From positions 1 through 41,366 of IMG/VR virus record IMGVR_UViG_3300046516_000328: a DNA stretch of 41,366 nt; one strand, written 5' to 3'. Below, piece after piece: positions 101-13,651 of this stretch (positions are counted from its first letter, which is position 1; each line of letters starts with the position of its first letter). Made by a program: the position numbers and the translations under genes. This DNA is from a virus. The notes beneath the pieces were generated by a model. That model did no database searches and was not told the origin of the DNA. It worked only from the letters and a program-made list of their open reading frames with translations.

Positions 101-120
101 TGTGGATAAGGTTATCCACA
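101..120. promoter_or_regulatory. Inverted pair of perfect DnaA boxes
   Basis: The sequence TGTGGATAAGGTTATCCACA holds two consensus DnaA boxes facing each other and separated by two bases. TTATCCACA is the high-affinity consensus for DnaA. The same boxes lie about 60 bases upstream of the 60-aa gene, so DnaA could also affect its expression. Confidence 0.85.
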
Positions 121-223: not shown

Positions 224-787
224 CTAAGATTTAGGGGCCAGCTTTCGCTTGATTTCTGCAATCGCATCTTGCGATACAGACGAGCCTTCGACTACAACGT
301 TCTGAACATTCTGAACATTGTTGTCGCCAATTTGCAACGACAGGTTGATAACGATCTGCGGACCAGTCGGCGTGCCGTTCTTAGCGAATTCCTTCAGTTC
401 GTTAAGGAAGTCTTGTAAGCCAGTCGGGACATACGGAACCGATGCGGTTCCGGCAGGCGTCCGATCGCTCTTAGTCACAAGCGGAAGCTGCTCGGTGAAC
501 CGGTAACGGTTCCGCTTGCGGTTCTCCGGGTCTTTGTCCCAATCGAGCAATTTAAGCTCCCTCAAGCGGCGCAGCGCGCGTTCGACGGTATCGCGAGAAG
601 TCTTCAGGCGTTCGGCCAGCGTGTCGACGCCAGGGAACGCCGTTCCGTTATTCAAGTCCGTATAGGTCTTCAGCATGACATATACCGCGATAGCGTTTAT
701 CCCCATCGCATCAAGCGGCGTGCTTCTCAGAACGTGGACCCATATCGTATCGGCGTCCAATTCATCCCAAAGCTGGATCTGGTTCAT
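224..787 (-). CDS. Winged-helix DNA-binding protein, candidate plasmid Rep or copy-control protein
   Basis: This 187-aa protein has a winged helix-turn-helix in its N-terminal half (about residues 28-82), with the HTH_36-type pattern FPGVDTLAERL followed by SRDTVERALRRL. The C-terminal part is unlike anything I know and contains an Asn/Val-rich run (about residues 150-168). It is the last gene of the ParA operon, its start overlaps the RHH gene by ATGA, and it ends 24 bases from the nearest origin palindrome. The position suggests a replication initiator or origin-binding regulator. I see no RepA, RepB or TrfA signature, so Rep function is inference and a plain transcription regulator is the alternative. 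Confidence 0.8.
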   Translation of the reverse strand: MNQIQLWDELDADTIWVHVLRSTPLDAMGINAIAVYVMLKTYTDLNNGTAFPGVDTLAERLKTSRDTVERALRRLRELKLLDWDKDPENRKRNRYRFTEQLPLVTKSDRTPAGTASVPYVPTGLQDFLNELKEFAKNGTPTGPQIVINLSLQIGDNNVQNVQNVVVEGSSVSQDAIAEIKRKLAPKS

Positions 788-1065
788 GCCTCCACGCCCC
801 GCGCGCGCAGCATCAATCGGATCTCCTTTTCGATAGCGCGGCCGGCAATGCTGTTCATGCTCTCGTCTTCCGAGTACAGCGCCAAGTCTCGCAGCAGTTC
901 GTAAAGGTCAGCGCGGATTCGCAAATTGATCTGACGATACGGTATCTTCGGCGGCCTTTTGCGCCAGTCTGCGCCCTGCTCTGCCTGCGGCGTGTCGATG
1001 GCATCCTGCGCCTTCCTGAGCCGTTCCAGTGCGTCTGCTCCGGTCGCTTGCATGGGCTTATTCAT
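784..1065 (-). CDS. Ribbon-helix-helix partition partner of ParA (ParG-like)
   Basis: This 93-aa protein begins with ATG inside the end of parA (ATGAATAA, 8-bp overlap). It has a flexible, charged N-terminus and a C-terminal ribbon-helix-helix of about residues 45-90, with strand INLRIRADL followed by two helices. In type Ib partition (ParF/ParG) a small RHH protein next to a short ParA binds the centromere and represses its own operon. The order (parA then RHH gene) and the size fit that class. The likely DNA targets are the TGTAGCA cluster at 2087-2112 or the palindromes at 123-200. The upstream in-frame extension to 1179 overlaps parA and was rejected. Confidence 0.85.
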   Translation of the reverse strand: MNKPMQATGADALERLRKAQDAIDTPQAEQGADWRKRPPKIPYRQINLRIRADLYELLRDLALYSEDESMNSIAGRAIEKEIRLMLRARGVEA

Positions 1066-1708
1066 TGCCGAAAATCTCCGTGTACAGGTTGTCGATCTCG
1101 ACCGATGCCTTCGCGTCGTAGTCCTTGCTCGGCAGCTCGTGAACGCCCTTCCCTTCCTCGTAAGCCTTCTGGAACGCAACCCGATCGCAGATGCGGCCGT
1201 CTAGCACGCGCAGAACGTCTTTGAACGGCTCGAAGCCTGCAAGGAACCGTTTGTACTGGTTCGAACTAGGGTCGACCATGTTCAGAACAACGGCAACGTC
1301 CTTCGTATCCTCGATCGCTGTATTGACGCGCCGGATCATCGTTGCAAAGTCTGGAACGGTGCTTAGATCGGCCGGTGACGGCTTCAGCGGGACGATCACC
1401 CTATCCGCCAGTACCATCGCCTCCCGAAAGTCGCTCGTGTCTTTTCCGCCAATGTCGACGAGAACGGTATCGAACTTCTCGCGCAGAGATACCAAGTCGC
1501 GCGCCAGATCCTTGCCGCGTGGGATGCAGAGCATTTCGGGCTCGATCCCTGCCACCGTGCGAACGGCGCACCACTTGGCTGTTGTCTGCTGGCTATCTAG
1601 GTCGACCAAGAGCACGCGATGACCGTGCGACGCGCGCAACGCGCCAAGGTTCTCGACTATCGTGCTTTTCCCGACGCCACCCTTCTCCGCCCCCACGGTT
1701 ATCAGCAT
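1058..1708 (-). CDS. parA: ParA-type partition ATPase
   Basis: This 216-aa P-loop ATPase of the ParA/MinD family carries the deviant Walker A box KGGVGKST at residues 9-16, the VLLVDLDSQ motif near residue 35 and the VLVDIGGKD motif near residue 85. Its short length, with no N-terminal HTH, is that of type Ib ParA (ParF-like) proteins, which spread on the nucleoid and move plasmid copies apart using an RHH adaptor. The start ATG overlaps the stop of the 105-aa gene upstream, and its own stop overlaps the RHH gene. Such a gene in a phage points to plasmid-state lysogeny. Confidence 0.95.
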   Translation of the reverse strand: MLITVGAEKGGVGKSTIVENLGALRASHGHRVLLVDLDSQQTTAKWCAVRTVAGIEPEMLCIPRGKDLARDLVSLREKFDTVLVDIGGKDTSDFREAMVLADRVIVPLKPSPADLSTVPDFATMIRRVNTAIEDTKDVAVVLNMVDPSSNQYKRFLAGFEPFKDVLRVLDGRICDRVAFQKAYEEGKGVHELPSKDYDAKASVEIDNLYTEIFGNE

Positions 1709-5483: not shown

Positions 5484-5860
5484 CAAGCCTCCGCCACCAT
5501 AACGATGCACTGGCCGCCTTTGACGATCGGACCGCGTGAGACGTGCAGCTCGTCTATCTGGCTGTCGTCATCGAATACGCCTGCATGCATCAGCGCATCC
5601 AGCCCGGCCTTGCAGAAGTTGTCGAGATCCCTGCGGCGCTTGTCGCCACCGCATACGCGCATCGCGACGAACAGACGGGAATCGCCAAACTTCTTCGCAT
5701 TGTGTTCCGCGACGATCTCTGCGACGCGCTCGCGGAAGGTCTTGCCGGCCGCGGTGATGTACATGCCGTGTGGCGACTTCCGCCAATAATTGTTCACGCT
5801 TGGGGGAAGTGGGAGAACTAGAAGCTGTGAATCCCCGTATAACTTCGATTGATCGGTCAT
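5483..5860 (-). CDS. rusA: RusA-type Holliday junction resolvase
   Basis: The 125-aa product matches RusA in length and in its acidic active site: RRDLDN (residues 76-81) and DDDSQID (97-103), with LPLPPSVNNYWR at the start. RusA homodimers cut Holliday junctions made during phage recombination and replication. Its ATG overlaps the stop of the +1 reading frame lying over dcm (ATGA at 5857-5860), while the dcm stop itself is 10 bases upstream; this matters for the overprinting question. Confidence 0.93.
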   Translation of the reverse strand: MTDQSKLYGDSQLLVLPLPPSVNNYWRKSPHGMYITAAGKTFRERVAEIVAEHNAKKFGDSRLFVAMRVCGGDKRRRDLDNFCKAGLDALMHAGVFDDDSQIDELHVSRGPIVKGGQCIVMVAEA

Positions 5861-6654
5861 GCTGCGTTCTTAACCTCGTGATAGCAAATCGAATGCTGCT
5901 GCTGCCACTCTTGAAACTTGCCCGTTTCCAAGGGCTTTAATGCGGTCCACCCGATTGGCCATCCCATCAACCACTCGACCCATTCCGGGTTCAATTGGCC
6001 ACCTGCTGAAGTCGATAGGGCGGTTCCGCCCTGCGCGTACTTCTCTTTTCTGTGGCCTGTGTCGTCCGCAACTGGCGTCGGCCATAACTTCACTTCCGCA
6101 CTTAGCTTCGGCTCGCCGCGGCTGTTCCATTTGCCGGCCGCTCTCGAAACAGCGTCGTCCGCTACGGGCATTTGCCAGAATCCAGATGCGCTCTCGCAAA
6201 TGTGGAGCGCCGGCGTCGGCTGCAGATACGATTCCCCATTCCGCATCGAACCCCATCGAGGCCAAGTCTCCGAGTACTCTTCCAAGCCCCCTAGAAGTGA
6301 GCATTGGGGAGTTCTCCATGTACGCGAATCGTGGTCGAACCTCGCCAATAATCCGTGCCATTTCTGACCAGAGGCCGCTTCGCTCTCCGTCAAGTCCATC
6401 GCCTTTGCCGGCCGCGCTAATGTCTTGGCAAGGGAAACCTCCCGAAACCACGTCAACAATTCCTCGCCACGGTCGGCCATCAAAGGTTCTGACGTCATCC
6501 CAAATCGGGAAAGGCGGGAATGTTCCGTCGTTTTGTCGGGCCAGTAGAACGCTTCGGGCGTAGGCGTTGTATTCGACGGCGCAGACAGTGCGCCATCCAA
6601 GTAAGTGGCCTCCGAGAATTCCGCCACCAGCGCCCGCGAACAATGCCAGCTCAT
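5857..6654 (-). CDS. Overlapping +1-frame ORF lying over dcm (possible overprinted gene)
   Basis: A 265-codon frame begins 4 bases after the dcm start (ATGAATGAGC) and covers the whole of dcm in the +1 frame. It ends in an ATGA overlap with rusA, as most genes in this operon do. One Shine-Dalgarno (GAGGAATAA) serves both starts, at about 4 and 8 bases spacing. The product is Trp/Ser/Pro-rich, with SETWPRWGSMRNG (about residues 129-141) and NPEWVEWLMGWPIGWTAL (about 222-239). I recall similar translations annotated as hypothetical proteins in other phages. Conservation could be a by-product of dcm, so expression is not proven. The unusual codon choice in dcm is a hint of constraint from both frames. 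Confidence 0.5.
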   Translation of the reverse strand: MSWHCSRALVAEFSEATYLDGALSAPSNTTPTPEAFYWPDKTTEHSRLSRFGMTSEPLMADRGEELLTWFREVSLAKTLARPAKAMDLTESEAASGQKWHGLLARFDHDSRTWRTPQCSLLGGLEEYSETWPRWGSMRNGESYLQPTPALHICESASGFWQMPVADDAVSRAAGKWNSRGEPKLSAEVKLWPTPVADDTGHRKEKYAQGGTALSTSAGGQLNPEWVEWLMGWPIGWTALKPLETGKFQEWQQQHSICYHEVKNAA

Positions 6655-6658
6655 TCAT
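5870..6658 (-). CDS. DNA (cytosine-5-)-methyltransferase
   Basis: The 262-aa product has the C5-methyltransferase motifs in order: FAGAGG (motif I, residues 7-12), GFPCQDIS with catalytic Cys77 (motif IV), ENSP at 115-118 (motif VI), HLRERIWI near 155 (motif VIII) and GNGQV at 244-248 (motif X). The stretch between VIII and X is short, so the target recognition domain is small. It would methylate cytosine in phage DNA, probably against host restriction. Hand counting gives about 16 GGA to 10 GGC for Gly and 13 CGA to 6 CGC for Arg, unlike the GGC/CGC-rich neighbours. An entire second reading frame lies over it. Confidence 0.93.
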   Translation of the reverse strand: MNELALFAGAGGGILGGHLLGWRTVCAVEYNAYARSVLLARQNDGTFPPFPIWDDVRTFDGRPWRGIVDVVSGGFPCQDISAAGKGDGLDGERSGLWSEMARIIGEVRPRFAYMENSPMLTSRGLGRVLGDLASMGFDAEWGIVSAADAGAPHLRERIWILANARSGRRCFESGRQMEQPRRAEAKCGSEVMADASCGRHRPQKREVRAGRNRPIDFSRWPIEPGMGRVVDGMANRVDRIKALGNGQVSRVAAAAFDLLSRG

Positions 6659-10036: not shown

Positions 10037-10248
10037 TTCGGTTCCTTGCTAACGTGGACGTACATCTGCGCAAGGCTGGTGTGGTTTGAATCAGGGTCAA
10101 GCCCAAGGCGATTGCACATCATGTATGCGGACGTTGATCCGAACCCGAATGTCTCCATCGCCAGTACCAAGTTCGGCATGCGCGAACGCTTCACGATGCG
10201 GCGAACGTTGGCAAGAACCAGCGCGTCTCGCTTATCCTGCTCGCTCAT
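10033..10248 (-). CDS. 71-aa hypothetical protein downstream of the helicase loader
   Basis: The start at 10248 overlaps the loader gene stop (ATGA), and the stop overlaps the next start (ATGA). Residues 1-20 form a basic helix (MSEQDKRDALVLANVRRIVK); the middle has METFGFGSTSAYMMCNRLGL, which could be a helix-turn-helix reading of sequence. No family is recognised with confidence. It might be a small DNA-binding or replication accessory protein given its position after dnaC and the O-like gene. Confidence 0.68.
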   Translation of the reverse strand: MSEQDKRDALVLANVRRIVKRSRMPNLVLAMETFGFGSTSAYMMCNRLGLDPDSNHTSLAQMYVHVSKEPK

Positions 10249-11042
10249 GCGGCCTCCGAATCCAGCCCTGCCACATCGCGCGACTGGCGGCGGTGCGACT
10301 CCCAATCAAAAAGGACCGACACGCCAGATTCGTCAAGGCGGTCCCAAAAGCGCTCGCCAACGTAGCTCTTAAGCTCTTTCGCGCCAATGTTCGTGAGCAG
10401 GATAGTCGGCCGGCAATTCAGGCGACGCGCTTCTAGCAGCTCGTGAAGGGTGCGCTCTTCGTCGGCTGTCCCGCGCTGGACGCCGATCTCGTCAATAATC
10501 ATTAGGTCGATTTGCTCGAACTGCTTCAGCATTTGTTCTTCGGTCATTTCCGAAGACTTCGCCCAAGTGCTGCGGATCTTCGTGAAAAGCCGGGTGATCG
10601 ACGTGAAGTAGGCGGTATAGCCGCGCGCCATCACTTGATTAGCTGCCGCGCATGCAAGGTGCGTCTTGCCAGTGCCGCGCCGTCCAGCGCCAACAAGAAC
10701 GGTCCCGGCCTTCAGATGCGACGGGAAGGTGTCAGCGAAGCGTTTGAACCTTTCGAGGGCAACGCGCTTGCCTTGGGTATCGGCGTCATAGTTTGCAAAT
10801 GACCGGTCACGCAGCAACGCAGGGATGCCCGCTTGCTCAAGACGCGCTTCGATCTTTGCCTGACGCTCTGCGCGCTCTTTCTCGGCAAAGGCTGCGGCCT
10901 CGCGGTCTGCATCCTCTTGCGAGCATGTAGGGCAGCGCGTGATCTTGATAACGCGATCGCCAAGTGCTATCGAGCGGATAGGGAAAGCGCCGTGTTTTAG
11001 GCAAGATCCCCTTTCCTCCGGTGTGGCTAATGAAACATTCAT
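10245..11042 (-). CDS. dnaC: DnaC-like replicative helicase loader
   Basis: The 265-aa product is an IstB/DnaC-type AAA+ ATPase with Walker A GAGRRGTGKTH (about residues 118-128), Walker B IDLMIIDEIG (about 178-187) and the sensor region ILLTNIGAKEL. The N-terminal domain has a Cys/His set (C14, H17, C37, C40) as in DnaC-like proteins with a zinc site. It would load host DnaB onto the origin opened by the O-like protein encoded just upstream, as lambda P or DnaC does. AAAGGAACCGTC precedes the ATG. Confidence 0.93.
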   Translation of the reverse strand: MNVSLATPEERGSCLKHGAFPIRSIALGDRVIKITRCPTCSQEDADREAAAFAEKERAERQAKIEARLEQAGIPALLRDRSFANYDADTQGKRVALERFKRFADTFPSHLKAGTVLVGAGRRGTGKTHLACAAANQVMARGYTAYFTSITRLFTKIRSTWAKSSEMTEEQMLKQFEQIDLMIIDEIGVQRGTADEERTLHELLEARRLNCRPTILLTNIGAKELKSYVGERFWDRLDESGVSVLFDWESHRRQSRDVAGLDSEAA

Positions 11043-11073: not shown

Positions 11074-11778
11074 TTAGAACGTAAAACCTTGGCTGTAGTC
11101 CATGTCGTCGAGCGACTTCGGCTGCTTCAATGATACACCGTTCGCTTTATTTCGTGTCGAAGAAAAACGCTTGTCGTTGCGAATCCACGTCCGGAAAGCT
11201 GCCGTCCAATCCTTGTAAGTCGACCCCTTCGCCAGGTGGTAGTCACGGAAGCTGTCAATCAGGTCGTCAGGAGCGCTCAAGCCGTTCTCTGTCGCCCACT
11301 TGCGCATCTCGTCTGTCACGGCAAAATCTGCTGGCAGGGCTACGGCTCTTTTTATTTCCTTTGGATGGTTCTTTCCTATGGTTAATTCTGGGTGAACCTG
11401 CTTCACCCCCGAGGGTGAACCTCCTTCACCCATGGGTGAACCTCCTTCACCCCCCGACAGATCATTCTCCGGCTCAGGTCCAGCGTTGCTTGCAAGGGCA
11501 AGATGGTTCGGAACCTGAAGGTAAAACAGGTTTGATTGCTGCCGGCCTTCCTTGTTGAAACGCTTCTCCCGCTTTAGCCAGCCGGCGTCTTCCGCCAGTC
11601 CGACATGCTCGATGACGCTGCGCGAGGAAAGGGAAGTCAGAGATGCTAGGCGGGCGTACGACGGGAATGCCGGATCGCCCATGTCGTTGACGTGCATATC
11701 GAGCGCCACCAGGACGAGCTTCGTCGAGGCGGCTAACTTCGACTGCATGACAGCCTTTTTGTAAGTCCAGATACTCAT
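11074..11778 (-). CDS. O-like replication initiator with internal origin
   Basis: The 234-aa product has an N-terminal winged helix (about residues 10-85, with FPSYARLASLTSLSSRSVIE) and a C-terminal DnaT/O-like domain (about 150-215, PADFAVTDEMRKWATENGL and YKDWTAAFRTWIRNDKRF) that in relatives contacts the helicase or loader. The hinge between them (about residues 109-130) is Gly/Ser/Glu-rich because its DNA carries three palindromic iterons. This is how the lambda O gene is built. The start is the ATG overlapping the Cro-like gene stop (ATGA); the upstream extension to 11955 is a shadow. Confidence 0.88.
   Translation of the reverse strand: MSIWTYKKAVMQSKLAASTKLVLVALDMHVNDMGDPAFPSYARLASLTSLSSRSVIEHVGLAEDAGWLKREKRFNKEGRQQSNLFYLQVPNHLALASNAGPEPENDLSGGEGGSPMGEGGSPSGVKQVHPELTIGKNHPKEIKRAVALPADFAVTDEMRKWATENGLSAPDDLIDSFRDYHLAKGSTYKDWTAAFRTWIRNDKRFSSTRNKANGVSLKQPKSLDDMDYSQGFTF
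11341..11452. other. Lambda-style origin inside the O-like gene
   Basis: Three 19-bp sites of the form GGGTGAA-N5-TTCACCC lie at 11390-11408, 11413-11431 and 11434-11452. Each is a perfect inverted repeat with 7-bp arms, and the starts are 23 and 21 bp apart. On the coding strand they are followed by a purine- and A-rich stretch (11341-11389). Iterons then AT-rich DNA in the hinge of an initiator gene is the lambda ori arrangement. The O-like protein is the obvious binder. Confidence 0.8.
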
Positions 11779-12026
11779 TTGTCTTCCTTGCCGCTGCCGA
11801 CCAGATACGCCGGCAGATCGCGCAAGCCGAGCAGGTCGACAATCTTCATACCTTCGCCGGGCGCGACTTCCTCGCTTGCTTTCGCCAACTCGATCGCCTT
11901 GTTGACGGACACACCGTGTACTCCGTTCTTGATGTGATACCAGGACTGCAGGCAAAGCCCGATCTTGTCGCGCATCTGGCGGACGACCTTCGGACCCTGC
12001 TTATCGTGGAACTCTTTTGCGTTCAT
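11775..12026 (-). CDS. Cro-like HTH protein, first early gene
   Basis: The 83-aa product starts at 12026 after AGGAGATCAC. Its N-terminal half contains a helix-turn-helix reading KVVRQMRDKIGLCLQSWYHI, then NGVHGVSVNKAIELAKAS, the pattern of YdaS/Cro-type phage regulators in which the recognition helix starts near SWYHIK. The upstream extension to 12089 crosses the promoter. It is the first gene transcribed from the early promoter at 12061-12089 and faces the divergent HTH repressor gene, as cro faces cI. Confidence 0.85.
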   Translation of the reverse strand: MNAKEFHDKQGPKVVRQMRDKIGLCLQSWYHIKNGVHGVSVNKAIELAKASEEVAPGEGMKIVDLLGLRDLPAYLVGSGKEDK

Positions 12027-12089: not shown

Positions 12090-12134
12090 TTAATTGTAGG
12101 CTTAATGTGGCTTAACTTAGTGAAAACTCTAGTG

Positions 12135-12151: not shown

Positions 12152-12180
12152 TTGCAAAGAGACAATGTTTGCCTCAATAT
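12152..12180 (+). promoter_or_regulatory. Candidate maintenance promoter for the repressor
   Basis: TTGCAA (12152-12157) and CAATAT (12175-12180) are 17 bases apart and about 100 bases upstream of the repressor start. The -10 match is poor, so the promoter may need activation. The palindrome at 12135-12146 lies directly upstream of the -35 box, a usual place for an activating repressor. Confidence 0.35.
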
Positions 12181-12280: not shown

Positions 12281-12745
12281 ATGACCGTTGAACCAATCGA
12301 GCGAACCCGACAAAAAAACTTTCTTTGGCTTTTTGAGCAATTCAAAGAGGAAACAAGAAAGCAATGGCCGGATCAGCCTGAGTACGGAATGCTCAAGATG
12401 TTTGCCGAGCGGCTAGGCATGTCGCAGCTCTATGTCTCGCAGATCAAGAACGGCGGCCCAAAGGAAGAAGGGAAGAACGGCCGCGTCATCGGGACCAAGC
12501 TGGCAGACAAGATAGAGAAGGCGCTTGGGCTACCTGGCGGGTGGATGGATACCCAGCACGACGCGGAGCCCCCCAAGAGGCTGCAATCGGCTCCTGAGGC
12601 TACTGGCGAAGACGAAGGGCTCAAGGATGTACTCGATATGGTCTCCGGTCTATATTCGCACTCACCGGACGCCACCCGCGCAGCACTCATTAAGGTCATG
12701 GGCGCAATCGTCACAGGAAAGCCGATCAAACCAGCCTCTCGCTAA
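12281..12745 (+). CDS. HTH phage repressor (CI-like)
   Basis: The 154-aa product has an XRE-like helix-turn-helix (about residues 15-70): FLWLFEQFKEE, MFAERLGMSQLYVSQIKNGG, then VIGTKLADKIEKALGLPGGW. The C-terminal third (about 100-145) is an amphipathic helical region suited to dimerisation. There is no S24 peptidase domain and no Ala-Gly or Cys-Gly cleavage site before one, so RecA-stimulated self-cleavage is unlikely. AAAGGAACCCAAG precedes the ATG. It diverges from the Cro-like early gene, so it is the likely immunity repressor. Confidence 0.85.
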   Translation: MTVEPIERTRQKNFLWLFEQFKEETRKQWPDQPEYGMLKMFAERLGMSQLYVSQIKNGGPKEEGKNGRVIGTKLADKIEKALGLPGGWMDTQHDAEPPKRLQSAPEATGEDEGLKDVLDMVSGLYSHSPDATRAALIKVMGAIVTGKPIKPASR

Positions 12746-13290: not shown

Positions 13291-13584
13291 TTCAGCAGCC
13301 GTCGCCTGAGCAATCAAGCGGCGGCTTTGATTTAGGCGGCGGCATGTATTACTCGCATAGGTGTTGGTGGTGCTCGCGCACGCTTCAGCCTGGCGAAGAT
13401 TGCTGTCGCGCAGAAGACAAGTTATTCGTGTTCGCCTGGCGGCTCCCCACTGCCTGACTGCTGGAAAGACAGCGCTTTCACGCATGGCGGCTACTTGTGC
13501 CAGCAAGAGCGCCGGTCGGTCGTCCCGGACAAGCCGCCAGTCGTGAGAGTGAATGCGCAGGCTGATGCGCCGCAACTACAGTAG
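13272..13584 (+). other. Two overlapping short frames, possible broken or frameshifted Cys-rich protein
   Basis: Frame one (13272-13457, 61 aa; internal ATG at 13344) contains HRCWWCSRTLQPGEDCC, which looks like a zinc-binding knuckle. A second frame, open from 13336 to the stop at 13582-13584, contains LPDCWKDSAFTHGGYLCQQE and reads like natural protein, but has no ATG. The two may be one gene joined by a +1 shift, a frameshift mutation, or a second gene with a rare start. No ribosome binding site is convincing for either. Apart from these frames, the region 13138-13651 holds one candidate promoter and one terminator. Confidence 0.35.
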
Positions 13585-13651
13585 TGCGCGCTTTGCGGGG
13601 CTTGCTACAACCCTGTGCCGGAGATCAGCGCCGGCCACTCTCACCAAACAA

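Follow-up and report, generated by a model that had tools for sequence, protein, structure and literature searches.

A putative lytic origin within the initiator gene of a phage genome with a separate plasmid replicon

The window, that is the whole 41,366-nucleotide stretch of viral DNA analysed (IMG/VR record IMGVR_UViG_3300046516_000328), contains three perfect 19-bp palindromes, GGGTGAA-N5-TTCACCC, within the gene of an O-like replication initiator. Judged from the sequence, these are very probably the initiator-binding iterons of a lytic origin, situated in the part of the gene that encodes a linker. A Rep/ParA replicon is found elsewhere in the genome, and by its gene content the virus is a phage-plasmid with two replicons.

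Palindromes within the hinge region of the initiator gene

The initiator (234 aa, minus strand, 11074..11778) consists of an HTH_36/DnaD-like winged helix, a disordered hinge and DnaT-like C-terminal helices. It matches several phage replication-initiation families. The HTH_36 match is above the curated Pfam cut-off (31.4 bits, cut-off 25), while the match to the DnaT domain is weak (16.7 bits, under the Pfam cut-off of 25). In the AlphaFold model, residues 1-90 form a confident winged helix, followed by disorder and then three C-terminal helices; pLDDT is below 50 for residues 95-149, and the residues encoded by the repeats fall within this predicted disordered linker. The top fold matches in the PDB are the N-terminal domain of DnaD and plasmid Rep initiators.

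The palindromes lie on the minus strand, their starts 23 and 21 bp apart, as the initial annotation had reported, and its placement of them in the hinge also holds, since they fall inside the frame 11778-11074 where the linker is predicted to be disordered. Iterons 1 (11434..11452) and 2 (11413..11431) have the sequence GGGTGAAGGAGGTTCACCC, and iteron 3 (11390..11408) reads GGGTGAAGCAGGTTCACCC on the coding strand, in a reading frame different from that of the other two. There are no further exact copies in the genome. When up to three mismatches were allowed, five matches were found against 1.1 expected, and none of 100 dinucleotide shuffles gave five. When the codons of the initiator gene were shuffled 20,000 times, with the protein and the set of codons retained, one copy arose in 110 shuffles and two or three copies in none. 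Chance is thus excluded as the origin of the palindromes by both kinds of shuffle.

Downstream of the palindromes on the coding strand is the AT-rich DNA that had also been noted at the outset, a candidate unwinding region (11341..11389) with 38-40% GC in 40-bp windows, compared with 58% for the genome. Two direct 13-mers, AACCATAGGAAAG and AACCATCCAAAGG (minus strand, 11358..11383), which are absent from the initial annotation, are located within it. They occupy two codon phases and resemble a weak form of the (G)AACC array described below. The first AACCAT is unchanged in all relatives of the gene, and the second is off by one base in the relatives L004-L008.

Six close relatives of the initiator (77-78% protein identity) were found in the viral collection. 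Because L005-L008 are near-identical in the initiator gene, they represent about three independent lineages. Loss of the iterons with retention of the hinge had been named in advance as evidence against an origin; instead, all six relatives retain three repeats in register. Among codons 109-137 that encode the same residue, synonymous change is 0 of 23-27, versus 38-44% for the remainder of the gene (four non-independent comparisons, each with p ~1e-5). In L004-L008, GGGTGCA replaces GGGTGAA in all three copies, making the palindrome imperfect; this shared A-to-C change fits binding sites that coevolve with a single protein. The use of two reading frames, together with the lack of synonymous change in relatives, argues for a function of the repeats as DNA, which is well supported by these comparisons.

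Plasmid replicon and early operon

At the start of the window, an inverted pair of DnaA boxes, TTATCCACA (101..120), adjoins a predicted plasmid origin (121..202) made of three palindromic iterons at 121-138, 153-170 and 185-202. These iterons are ~18 bp each with a period of 32 bp, and they lie downstream of the gene for a winged-helix plasmid Rep (minus strand, 224..787; HTH_36, DnaD_N). Next on the same strand are a small Arc/CopG-like gene with an inferred start codon (784..1065; phrog_3180, E 0.0035), which is a candidate ParB-type partner, and a ParA partition ATPase (1058..1708; phrog_164, E 7e-41). Homologues of Rep with 70, 44 and 39% identity have kept the ~32-bp repeat spacing with repeat sequences of their own, and the DnaA box-like TTATCCACA is also kept beside them. 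The origin that the initial annotation had placed at 62-232 is therefore recognizable by its iterons next to rep and by the only two DnaA boxes of the genome. Its further claim, of two unlike origins in one genome, agrees with the presence of this replicon apart from the in-gene iterons.

Neither a tyrosine nor a serine recombinase was found in the genome as a possible integrase. This, with Rep, ParA, the iterons and the DnaA boxes, makes the presence of two replicons a well-supported prediction. Genes for portal, terminase, major head protein and scaffold are present. An exact 127-bp direct repeat at the contig ends (1-127 and 41240-41366) fits a genome that is circular and 41,239 bp long, and is probably an assembly overlap. 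Rep was not found in the contigs that carry the close initiator relatives; these contigs are fragments, and one (G004) breaks beside the region.

The early operon begins with an 83-aa gene in the place of cro (minus strand, 11775..12026), which is kept in the sister phage G008 and has no family match. The initiator gene is followed directly by a DnaC-like helicase loader (minus strand, 10245..11042; phrog_50, E 2e-70). Upstream of the operon are a 17-bp candidate operator/promoter element, TTAGTGAAAACTCTAGT (12117..12133), which is the same in all of four related phages, and a conserved putative repressor promoter, TTGCAA-N17-CAATAT (plus strand, 12152..12180). A divergent repressor-like gene (plus strand, 12281..12745; phrog_12107 transcriptional repressor, E 1e-9) faces the O-dnaC operon and is likely to act as the switch between the lytic and plasmid states.

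We infer a course of replication in which, on induction, the repressor-controlled early operon would supply both initiator and DnaC-like loader. The initiator would bind through its winged helix to the three iterons, which, being about two helical turns apart, would present themselves on the same face of the DNA. Strain from binding would open the adjoining AT-rich stretch with its AACCAT 13-mers, and the DnaT-like domain and the loader would then recruit the host DnaB helicase. In the lysogen, the O-dnaC operon would be off and the genome would be maintained as a plasmid by the Rep/ParA replicon with its DnaA boxes. The in-gene origin would thus be for lytic use and the Rep origin for plasmid use.

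The lytic initiator appears to move as a unit with its repeats, independently of the plasmid replicon. Sister phage G008 shares with the window a 99% identical Rep and much of the early region. At the same locus, however, G008 has an initiator of another type (L022:7866-8579) with its own hinge repeats, only two short copies of AACCCAAATCTGG. The C-terminal (3') tail of this initiator and the downstream DnaC-like loader are common with the window's relatives. Such a swap beside a 99% identical Rep suggests that lytic initiator and repeats travel together.

Two other segments of the genome have matches in phages. An 89-bp core at 13549-13637 (within 13536-13650, plus strand) is 93-95% identical to the plp/upl region of phage P1; it is present in several hundred P1-like plasmids, and in sister phage G001 at 73%. 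In the window, P1 and G001 the core is predicted to form a closed multi-branched RNA in which two loops could pair, with weak z-scores, and in P1 a stem is changed on both sides. The core has no match in Rfam. The stretch 6233-6658, which overlaps a methyltransferase gene (minus strand, 5857-6654), is 80% identical to two Manatee Spring phage contigs. Apart from this stretch and the P1-like one, nothing in the first 25 kb matched phage records.

Iterons and (G)AACC arrays in other phages

In a scan of viral contigs, pairs of GGGTGAA-N5-TTCACCC were found in another phage with a dissimilar initiator, and a third case is one bacterial contig (Meinhardsimonia). With the relaxed pattern GGGTG-N9-CACCC in pairs, a blind DNA scan identified 56 stretches. 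The narrower pattern had given 21, and its rearranged control none. At 45 loci an open frame spans the repeats; by a local profile, 40 of these encode the winged-helix initiator type, in phages that are otherwise unlike one another, and Pfam HTH_36 is matched by 37 of 70 frames. As some of these loci went into the local profile, it is the Pfam and PHROG counts that constitute independent evidence. The 74 frames from both scans form 30 clusters at 40% identity. A DNA similarity search of named phages with the iteron block gave no match, and a protein-based scan of genome contigs found nothing. Hinge repeats of the same kind are seen in phages SfV, ST64B and PseuP_222.

A second element accompanies the iterons. 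In 27 genes chosen by their iterons alone, near relatives included, pairs of AACC 10-13 bp apart occur within 77 bp after the iterons in 14, versus 1 of 233 other windows taken from these genes (p = 6e-15). A spacing of 11 bp is the most frequent, and the pairs occur in each of the three codon phases. In the reciprocal scan, for four GAACC units at 11-12 bp, 57 loci among the matches listed have a frame of at least 130 aa; 36 of these belong to replication-initiation families and 33 have HTH_36. Repeated 12-mers are found within 170 bp upstream of the GAACC array at 34 of 34 winged-helix loci (local profile); the figures are 7 of 33 for control stretches from those genes and 12 of 42 for the remaining loci, again among the matches listed. 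Direct (G)AACC repeats phased at 11-12 bp stand beside iterons in the phage initiator genes of L081, L045, L040, L083, L121 and others.

The iterons beside GAACC arrays are often of quite different sequence. The array thus appears to be constant, while the iterons vary. The window itself has just two AACCAT units, 13 bp apart, whereas the array elsewhere has a period of 11-12 bp. A more general reading is that HTH_36/DnaD-type initiators have a common two-part in-gene origin code, in which the iterons vary and an ~11-bp (G)AACC array is constant across hosts, as an unwinding or single-strand loading element with a role like that of the DnaA-trio or plasmid 13-mers; the origin of the window would be a reduced member. 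We regard this as evenly balanced between true and false. No description of the (G)AACC array or the iteron motif in phage origins was found in open-licence full text.

The array, which a specialist may not expect, gives the ill-defined unwinding step a concrete candidate element. A short DNA signal that locates in-gene phage origins blindly is a wider result, and outweighs a single origin. The origin of the window adds a well-supported two-replicon phage genome outside the P1 group, in which initiator and iterons appear to be exchangeable while the plasmid replicon stays.

Alternative readings and known systems

The palindromes could instead be operators for the early operon or the loader gene, bound by the initiator or another regulator, and have no role as an origin. 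Their dyads are perfect and operator-sized, winged-helix proteins are often repressors, and MarR-type folds are among the structural matches of the initiator, ranked below DnaD and Rep. However, the palindromes lie mid-gene, away from the promoter, and their recurrence is confined to the hinges of replication initiators, where AT-rich or AACC DNA follows. Known lambdoid origins occupy exactly this place. Purely regulatory sites are accordingly improbable, although autoregulation by the initiator through the palindromes may be additional to the origin role. Still less probable is an element at the RNA level, either hairpins in the O mRNA or internal initiation of translation that gives a C-terminal fragment. 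The coding strand reads GGAGG-TTCACCC-ATG, so that the first loop contains GGAGG, with an in-frame ATG 7 nt further on, and Met116 is invariant among relatives. The Shine-Dalgarno-like loop varies, however, being GATGG in L004-L008 and ACAGG in L009, and an internal start was rejected for this reason; hairpins were rejected because all three stems are mismatched in L004-L008. There is hardly any likelihood that the DNA repeats merely reflect a Gly/Ser/Pro-rich linker, even though its sequence is GGEGGSPMGEGGSPSGVKQVHP. The third copy is in the other frame and codes for different residues, and this shift, together with the synonymous sites unchanged in relatives, refutes a protein-level repeat as the full explanation. 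Two copies also never arose from codon shuffles.

A different doubt accepts the in-gene origin as real and concerns the division between lytic and lysogenic use: for instance, both origins might be active while the phage is a plasmid, or the Rep replicon might be a degenerate remnant. GC skew as an origin pointer is in keeping with this, as it is weak, tracks gene direction and is not decisive. Against it, both Rep and its iterons are intact and vary together from homologue to homologue, the divergent repressor faces the O operon, and P1 has the same division of work (PMC9948254). The absence of such a split is therefore unlikely, if less so than the operator, RNA and protein explanations, and iterons of a lytic origin are the preferred reading.

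Two unlike origins in one phage genome are not new. P1 replicates from oriR as a prophage and from oriL, which lies in repL, during lytic growth (PMC9948254). The window has in common with P1 the separate plasmid and lytic replicons and a lytic origin inside the initiator gene (PMC9948254). The oriL of P1 reportedly requires AT2, an AT-rich region of repL (PMC9948254), whereas the lytic origin proposed for the window is of the iteron type and is paired with a DnaC-like loader.

By analogy, the in-gene origin may work like lambda ori. The likeness to lambda drawn in the initial annotation holds for the iterons within the gene and the AT-rich tract 3' of them, and extends to the loader gene that comes next, but not to the protein family, as Phage_rep_O of lambda O was unmatched in a Pfam scan to E 0.1 that gave only HTH_36 and the weak DnaT. 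Repeats within O-like genes are known from lambda and Stx phages (PMC7466680). Their ori in gene O resembles that of the window in having mid-gene iterons ~20-24 bp apart (20, 24 and 23 bp for the annotated lambda iterons), a 3' AT-rich tract, a helicase loader next and an early operon under a repressor. The window differs in its iteron sequence, its HTH_36/DnaD winged helix, its DnaC-like rather than P-like loader and its lack of an integrase.

Another likeness is to phages with HTH_36 initiators. Those of SfV, ST64B, PseuP_222 and VD77 have in-gene GTG-N9-CAC repeats; MD8, in whose O-like gene repeats have been noted (PMC8508860), does not match this pattern. All five have GAACC repeats just downstream of the in-gene repeats, whereas the AACC array of the window has only two units at 13 bp. 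The window also carries a plasmid replicon, which is not shown for the HTH_36 phages examined.
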